NCBI GenBank assembly: GCA_018715365.1
Contig: DVLU01000104.1
Span: forward strand, 1-64,000
Length of the DNA stretch: 64,000 bases
Direction of reading: 5' to 3'
DNA from: Candidatus Ornithomonoglobus intestinigallinarum
Lineage (GTDB): Bacteria > Bacillota > Clostridia > UBA1381
Shown here piece after piece: positions 9,385 through 23,571 of the stretch. The notes under the pieces were generated by a model. That model made no database searches, was not told where the DNA came from, and saw nothing but the letters and a program-made list of their open reading frames with translations. Every line of letters begins with the position of its first letter. The first letter of the stretch is position 1. The translations under genes were made by a program, and so were the position numbers.

Positions 9385-9461
9385 CGGGGTGTGGCTCAGT
9401 TTGGTAGAGTACTTGAATGGGGTTCAAGGGGCCGCTGGTTCGAATCCAGTCACTCCGACCA
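9385..9461 (+). tRNA. tRNA-Pro (anticodon GGG), CCA encoded
   Basis: Cloverleaf: CGGGGTG/CACTCCG acceptor, CTTGA-ATGGGGT-TCAAG anticodon arm, GCTGG-TTCGAAT-CCAGT T arm, A-CCA 3' end. Confidence 0.95.
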
Positions 9462-21981: not shown

Positions 21982-22010
21982 TTGACAAACACGGGCGCAT
22001 CGTGTATTAT
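21982..22010 (+). promoter_or_regulatory. Promoter of trpB2 leader transcript
   Basis: TTGACA (21982-21987), 17 nt, TATTAT (22005-22010), with an overlapping TATAAT. Confidence 0.7.
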
Positions 22011-22012
22011 AA

Positions 22013-22078
22013 TAGTCAGATGAGAACAGTTGAGCGCCCAAGGGGCATAATAGTTGAGCAGAGATAAGATGAGAATAG
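22013..22078 (+). promoter_or_regulatory. Candidate TRAP-binding site: NAG-triplet array
   Basis: NAG triplets at 22017, 22022, 22027, 22032 and 22051, 22056, 22061, 22066, 22071, 22076 (5-nt period in each block), plus TAG at 22013. Confidence 0.7.
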
Positions 22079-22106
22079 TTTAATATGATTTTATTTATGA
22101 TTATTC

Positions 22107-22147
22107 CGCTCTGCCGATGTATATTTTTGGCAGAGCGTTTTTATTTC
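22107..22147 (+). terminator. Leader terminator (attenuator) upstream of trpB2
   Basis: CGCTCTGCC-GATGTATATTTTT-GGCAGAGCG-TTTTTATTT; GCAGAG at 22058-22063 can pair with CTCTGC of the 5' stem. Confidence 0.85.
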
Positions 22148-22200
22148 TCTTTTGCGTTTCTCATCGGGCAAAAAATTTCATGAAAGGACAGTGACCCGAA

Positions 22201-23571
22201 ATGGCAAAAATCCCCTACAAAATTTACCTGAGCGAAAGTGAGATGCCAACGCAATGGCACAACGTGAGAGCGGTCATGAAGGAGCTTCCCGACCCGTTCA
22301 TAAACCCCGCAACGGGCAAGCCGTGCACGTTTGACGACCTTCGGCCCGTATTCTGCGACGATTTAATCGAGCAGGAGCTGAACACAAAAGATTTATACAT
22401 AGACATCCCGGGCGAAATAATGGATTTCTATAAAATGTACCGCCCGTCGCCGCTTGTAAGAGCGTACAACCTCGAAAAGGCGCTCGATACCCCGGCAAAG
22501 ATATACTACAAATTCGAAGGAAACAACACCTCCGGCTCGCACAAATTAAATTCTGCCGCCGCACAGGTATACTACGCAAAAAAGCAGGGGCTTACGCACC
22601 TGACAACCGAAACGGGAGCCGGGCAGTGGGGCACGGCTTTGTCGATGGCATGCGCGTTCTACGGCATCGACCTTAAGGTATACATGGTAAAGGTATCGGC
22701 GGAGCAGAAGCCGCACCGCAAAAACGTTATAAGGACCTACGGCGGTGAGGTTATCCCGTCGCCGTCGGATACAACGGAGGTCGGCAGAAAAATACTTGCC
22801 GAAAATCCCGGAACGGGCGGCTCGCTCGGCTGCGCAATATCCGAAGCAATGGAAACGGCAATAAAAACGGACAACTGCCGCTACGTTCTGGGAAGCGTGT
22901 TAAACCACGTGCTTGTGCACCAGACAATAATCGGCCAGGAAACGTATGCCGCATGCAAAAAATACGATATCCGGCCCGATATAATAATCGGCTGCGCCGG
23001 AGGCGGCTCAAATCTCGGCGGACTTATATCGCCGTTTATGGAGGACAGGATCCTCGGCAAAACAAACACGCAGTTTGTTGCGGTTGAGCCTGCGTCATGC
23101 CCGTCGCTGACGCGCGGACGCTACGCGTTCGACTTCGGCGACACCGGCAAAACAACGCCTCTGATGAGGATGTATACGCTCGGCAGCGGCTTTATGCCGT
23201 CGCCAAACCACGCCGGCGGCCTGAGATACCACGGAATGTCGCCGATACTTTCAAAGCTGTATCACGACGGCTACATGAGCGCTGTTTCCTACGAGCAGAC
23301 AAAGGTGTTCGACGCGGCCGTGCAGTTTGCAAAGGTTGAGGGAACGCTCCCCGCGCCCGAATCATCGCACGCCATAAGAGCGGCAATAGACGAAGCGCTT
23401 CGCTGCAGGGAAACGGGCGAGGAAAAGACGATACTGTTCGGGCTTACCGGCACGGGATATTTTGATATGACGGCATACGCCGCGTATCTTGACGGCAATA
23501 TGACCGATTATATCCCAACGGACGAGGACCTTGAAAAAGGCTTCGCCACACTGCCAAAAATTGATTTTTAA
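22201..23571 (+). CDS. trpB: TrpB-like PLP-dependent enzyme (TrpB2 type)
   Basis: 456 aa; YYKFEGNNTSGSHKLNSAAAQ, TETGAGQWGTALSMACAF, GCAGGGSNLGG. Confidence 0.92.
   Translation: MAKIPYKIYLSESEMPTQWHNVRAVMKELPDPFINPATGKPCTFDDLRPVFCDDLIEQELNTKDLYIDIPGEIMDFYKMYRPSPLVRAYNLEKALDTPAKIYYKFEGNNTSGSHKLNSAAAQVYYAKKQGLTHLTTETGAGQWGTALSMACAFYGIDLKVYMVKVSAEQKPHRKNVIRTYGGEVIPSPSDTTEVGRKILAENPGTGGSLGCAISEAMETAIKTDNCRYVLGSVLNHVLVHQTIIGQETYAACKKYDIRPDIIIGCAGGGSNLGGLISPFMEDRILGKTNTQFVAVEPASCPSLTRGRYAFDFGDTGKTTPLMRMYTLGSGFMPSPNHAGGLRYHGMSPILSKLYHDGYMSAVSYEQTKVFDAAVQFAKVEGTLPAPESSHAIRAAIDEALRCRETGEEKTILFGLTGTGYFDMTAYAAYLDGNMTDYIPTDEDLEKGFATLPKIDF

Follow-up and report, generated by a model that had tools for sequence, protein, structure and literature searches.

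Whether the leader of a single trpB2 gene in Candidatus Ornithomonoglobus intestinigallinarum senses tryptophan, and by what means, is the question raised by this locus, which lies in a 64,000-nt stretch of DNA (the whole stretch analysed, hereafter the window). An earlier note on the locus had read the leader as a transcription attenuator controlled by TRAP, the MtrB protein, a textbook regulator, known chiefly from Bacillus. This reading was supported by the presence of mtrB in the genome, by conserved arrays in mtrB-positive relatives, by the association between array and mtrB and by a predicted competing helix, and we consider it highly probable that TRAP operates the trpB2 leader as a tryptophan-sensing transcription attenuator. 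The features on which the argument draws are as follows (window positions):

21982–22010, + strand: sigma-70-type promoter, TTGACA-17-TATTAT (11 of 12 matches)
22017–22034, + strand: TRAP triplet block 1, CAG GAG CAG GAG in 5-nt steps (sequence, shuffle test)
22036–22046, + strand: GC hairpin GCCC-AAG-GGGC within the array (sequence; kept in the sister species and a second leader)
22051–22078, + strand: TRAP triplet block 2, TAG GAG GAG AAG GAG TAG in strict 5-nt steps (sequence, shuffle test, genome pattern search)
22058–22063, + strand: GCAGAG, 5' half of the predicted antiterminator helix, within block 2 (pairing, nascent folding)
22073–22106, + strand: inner antiterminator stem GAATAG.../...TTATTC, extending the pairing (folding)
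22107–22146, + strand: intrinsic terminator CGCTCTGCC / GGCAGAGCG + TTTTTATTT, with CTCTGC at 22109–22114 common to terminator and antiterminator (folding)
22201–23571, + strand: trpB2, 456 aa, TrpB-like PLP enzyme, a single gene with its own promoter (profile matches)

The promoter claimed ahead of the array was confirmed, with TTGACA at 21982–21987 and TATTAT at 22005–22010 separated by a 17 bp gap. NAG triplets at 5-nt spacing were found in two blocks exactly where the earlier note had placed them and beyond chance in shuffles, block 1 starting at CAG 22017, GAG 22022, CAG 22027 and GAG 22032 and block 2 at TAG 22051, GAG 22056, GAG 22061, AAG 22066, GAG 22071 and TAG 22076; counted from a further TAG at 22013, the steps between successive triplets were 4, 5, 5, 5, 19, 5, 5, 5, 5 and 5. 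The note had arrived at 10–11 triplets by including TAG 22013. Because the -10 box occupies 22005–22010, the transcript likely starts near 22017, so that TAG 22013 probably lies outside it and the array comprises 10 transcribed triplets (4 in block 1 and 6 in block 2; 11 if TAG 22013 is counted), a number within the 9–11 of TRAP attenuators. Spacers of 2–3 nt throughout, a further mark of such attenuators, were not found: all were 2 nt but one, a stretch of 16 nt in which a 4-bp GC hairpin lies. The array sits ~120 nt 5' of the trpB2 start codon, with the terminator between.

A search of the genome for mtrB was the decisive test of the TRAP reading, and the gene was present (G000:C90:22400–22603; PF02081, E = 9.4e-38, 130 bits), flanked by what we take, from reading the translations, to be dnaE and a pfkA-like gene. 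Its product scored over the cut-off of the NCBIfam equivalog NF009724 'MtrB' and matched solved TRAP structures at E = 2e-25 for native-length chains and 9e-47 for a tandem-repeat TRAP chain. It was identical to the B. subtilis protein at T25, T30, F32, E36, K37, D39, Q47, T49, S53 and K56, which we take to be RNA- or Trp-contact residues, and carried K in place of R58, presumably an RNA-contact residue. Across 28 MtrB proteins of the lineage, T25, T30, F32, E36, K37, D39, Q47, T49 and K56 were invariant and the R58 position was K, N or R, being K or N in 24 of the 28 (L001, L033–L061, L183). Triplets in this lineage are often CAG or AAG, alongside the change of R58 to K or N. The search for anti-TRAP, which the earlier note had also proposed, gave no convincing homologue in the genome; it returned weak matches in frames of ~380 aa, and these are likely DnaJ zinc fingers.

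Downstream of the array, the proposed intrinsic terminator was recovered by folding at -18.7 kcal/mol, with arms CGCTCTGCC (22107–22115) and GGCAGAGCG (22129–22137) followed by TTTTTATTT and with its stem ending 63 nt before trpB2. GCAGAG (22058–22063) is complementary to CTCTGC (22109–22114) of the terminator 5' arm, and the competition of this pairing with the terminator, as claimed earlier, was reproduced in predicted nascent folding; the GAATA/TATTC pairing suggested as an extension appeared as the inner stem GAATAG/TTATTC. When growing window transcripts were folded, the antiterminator had a probability of 0.99–1.00 for RNA 3' ends at 22116–22130 and yielded once the terminator 3' arm emerged, and holding the triplets single-stranded as a stand-in for TRAP caused the terminator to form earlier. 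The predicted antiterminator overlaps the array and excludes the terminator, the arrangement of a TRAP attenuator. At equilibrium without TRAP the terminator was favoured (-35.4 kcal/mol vs -31.5 kcal/mol for the antiterminator); therefore antitermination must be kinetic, or the polymerase itself may be a further target of TRAP, as in B. subtilis (PMC3913778).

We infer TRAP binding, tryptophan dependence and an extruded hairpin in the following scheme. At low tryptophan TRAP would be inactive, and in the emerging RNA GCAGAG from the array would pair with CTCTGC in the 5' arm of the terminator, forming the antiterminator and allowing RNA polymerase to read into trpB2. At high tryptophan, Trp-loaded TRAP would bind all ten triplets around its ring and leave the GC hairpin, which separates the fourth triplet from the fifth, extruded; the bound array could no longer pair, so that the terminator would form and transcription would stop before trpB2.

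There is an appreciable, if minor, chance that TRAP binds the leader but mainly pushes or destabilises paused RNA polymerase, or affects translation, rather than freeing the terminator. Pairing between array and terminator bears directly on this alternative and was assessed by nascent-chain partition folding of 17 leaders, in which the terminator 5' arm was paired with the array at 0.66 vs 0.46 for shuffled arms (Wilcoxon p = 0.001, combined p = 3e-6). The pairing was maintained by differing sequences (GCAGAG:CTCTGC, GTTCAG:CTGAAC and TAGCAGAG:CTCTGCTA), and a longest-helix test on the terminator arm alone gave a moderate result (combined p = 1e-4). The predicted antiterminator was thus specific in the window and in most relatives, which argues for attenuation, as does a terminator of -18.7 kcal/mol here, compared with -12.6 kcal/mol in B. 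subtilis (PMC3913778). Pairing was not above chance, however, in 4 of the 17 leaders (L010, L026, L101 and L103; p over 0.3), was not individually significant in L004, L005, L006 and L128, and the L104 array extends into the start codon; moreover, B. subtilis TRAP causes termination even with the attenuator deleted (PMC3913778). The energy of the whole duplex between array and downstream RNA was tried as a test and rejected: it scored scarcely better than shuffles, since any U-rich RNA can pair with a purine-rich array.

The TRAP-attenuator reading was set against the leaders of relatives, in which both TRAP arrays and T-boxes occur. Sampling of the lineage covered 101 genomes, 58 of them with mtrB, and leaders were read for 43 trpB2 genes, 32 in mtrB-positive and 11 in mtrB-negative genomes; 17 carried a TRAP array, 24 a T-box and 2 neither. 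The 5-nt triplet periodicity that the earlier note had expected 5' of trpB2 in relatives was kept, and only where mtrB is present: arrays preceded trpB2 in 17 of 32 cases in mtrB-positive genomes vs 0 of 11 in mtrB-negative ones (Fisher p = 0.0014, with rows related by descent), and all 11 leaders of the latter had a T-box, which also replaces the TRAP leader in some mtrB-positive genomes. The TrpB2 tree requires six or more changes of leader state, and a phylogenetic pair test of array against mtrB yielded 3 supported independent pairs only, too few; the association is not fully independent, because the leaders are related by descent. Among the mtrB-positive relatives, Candidatus Avimonoglobus intestinipullorum has a TRAP-type trpB2 leader, and Ructibacterium gallinarum DSM 107454, a cultured species, has one of 8 triplets. 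The two trpB2 genes with neither array nor T-box, L015 and L095, are both in mtrB-positive genomes.

That the window leader is itself a T-box, or another tRNA- or metabolite-sensing RNA, is very improbable: despite the 24 of 43 trpB2 genes under T-boxes and the occurrence of T-boxes elsewhere in the window's genome, no Rfam family scored over its cut-off at the leader (the T-box covariance model included), the GGTGG[C/T]ACC / GGTGGNACC motif was absent from it, and it measures only ~130 nt from start to terminator. Just as improbable is ribosome-stalling attenuation through a leader peptide, for which an ATG near the start site opens a 15-codon frame (MRTVERPRGIIVEQR; ATG 22020 to TAA 22067); this frame contains no Trp codon (no TGG), has no ribosome-binding site and begins within ~3 nt of the likely transcript start, and relatives keep the NAG register, not a frame.

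The idea that the NAG periodicity is chance or low complexity in what is simply a constitutive, terminator-bearing leader can be set aside almost entirely, because even though AAAAG-type repeats yield similar matches elsewhere in relatives, none of 5000 dinucleotide shuffles reached the best triplet chain score of 6.85 (shuffle mean 2.4, maximum 6.5) and the register was kept, with varied spacer bases, in 17 relatives' leaders, all with mtrB. The trpB2-leader chain was also far ahead of the next independent triplet site in the 64-kb window, which scored 3.3–3.7. Six triplets at a strict 5-nt step occurred once in the 2.3-Mb genome and not at all in a reversed control, and five triplets at this step gave 2 genome matches, the trpB2 leader and a second TRAP-type leader.

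This second leader (L194; G000:C51, minus strand, triplet match 245–266) has a promoter, triplets, an in-array hairpin CGCCC-GAAG-GGGCG and a terminator. Beyond it, on the 3' side, lie a short frame containing two Trp codons (MTADYLTLFSAICLGKSEMTMRWRFWKS*) and then the contig end. A hairpin between the triplet blocks of the window leader had been noted before as GCCC-AA-GGGGC; a hairpin is indeed present, but its stem is of 4 bp, with GCCC at 22036–22039, the loop AAG and GGGC at 22043–22046. The triplets on either side, at 22032 and 22051, are separated by a 19-nt step, which is identical in the window leader, the trpB2 leader of the sister species (L164) and L194, in which stem and loop read GCCC|AAG|GGGC, GCCC|AAAG|GGGC and GCCC|GAAG|GGGC, respectively, with loop and flanking bases varying. 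Base changes between the terminator stems of these three are paired (GCC/GGC, GTC/GAC and GTTA/TAAC). The three hairpin leaders look homologous, and the hairpin is therefore a kept genus feature rather than three inventions; the hairpin-split array was absent from all other fetched loci, and none was found in the reversed-sequence control.

Our own reading is that the hairpin would be extruded so that both blocks sit in register on the TRAP ring, direct contact of the hairpin with TRAP, as supposed for the 5' stem-loop of B. subtilis, being the alternative. We tentatively suggest, with confidence a little short of even, that TRAP of this genus reads a bipartite site of two triplet blocks and an obligatory GC hairpin, extruded or contacting the ring, and that the 19-nt step serves as a structural recognition module common to at least two leaders of one genome. 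The TRAP sites described in the open-access work consulted have 2–3 nt spacers throughout (PMC3913778), and the hairpin-split site poses a new, testable question of how the TRAP ring accepts RNA. No open-access paper was found on TRAP control of trpB2 or on a hairpin-split TRAP site; an earlier description in subscription papers (e.g. Gutierrez-Preciado 2005) is possible.

Like the B. subtilis trp operon attenuator (trpL/trpE), the window leader has (G/U)AG-rich triplets with 2-nt spacers, mtrB in the genome and an array overlapping an antiterminator that excludes the terminator. It differs in that its target is a lone trpB2 and not trpEDCFBA, in having 10 triplets of which three are CAG or AAG, in an array that begins at the 5' end without a preceding 5' stem-loop, in the GC hairpin within the array, in its stronger terminator and in that anti-TRAP was not found in the search. 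Bacillus TRAP sites that act on translation, those of trpG and trpP/yhaG among them, share the NAG array and the tryptophan theme, whereas here the array stands ~120 nt 5' of the start codon with a terminator behind it; in relatives, arrays placed at the start of trpD and of trpB1 look like these Bacillus sites. Trp T-box leaders of trpB-like genes, one of which has been reported for Dehalococcoides (PMC2494555), share gene, nutrient and outcome with the TRAP leader but sense uncharged tRNA through RNA alone.

In the pattern search of 101 genomes, which also returned low-complexity (AAAAG-type repeats) and coding background, TRAP arrays were found in mtrB-positive relatives before trpE, trpD, trpB1 and genes for TrpX-type transporters and TrpP as well as trpB2; thus, a tryptophan regulon appears to be under TRAP control in this lineage, with TRAP leaders and T-boxes substituting for one another on trpB2. 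The transporter arrays were L078 and L108 (TrpX-type) and L111 (TrpP). Arrays at L082–L087 and L092 (trpD) and at L075 and L107 (trpB1) extend into the ribosome-binding site, and their placement suggests a translational block of these single genes by TRAP. The sister genome G001 has a T-box (G001:C148:2755–2985) just 5' of trpE and a TRAP leader on trpB2 (G001:C22, L004/L164), so that it apparently uses two unrelated tryptophan sensors, provided that the trpE T-box is tryptophan-specific.

The window gene itself exceeded the cut-offs of the trpB2-group, TrpB-like profiles NF009057 (6.8e-202) and TIGR01415 (9.4e-173) and scored far below that of canonical trpB (TIGR00263), an assignment that would place the target of the leader in tryptophan metabolism, as for TRAP attenuators; plausible next genes follow on the opposite strand. 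Less is settled about the function of trpB2 than about that of trpB1. trpE, trpA and canonical trpB were not found in the window's genome, of which the assembly is 84.8% complete, so that their absence is not proved, and all three are present in G001; a role of trpB2 in making tryptophan from indole and serine is therefore likely. Two unrelated sensors place trpB2 under tryptophan control, which is good evidence for a function in supplying tryptophan, probably from indole, to gut-type Clostridia. The sole Rfam match in the window was a tRNA gene at 9385–9458 (+ strand).
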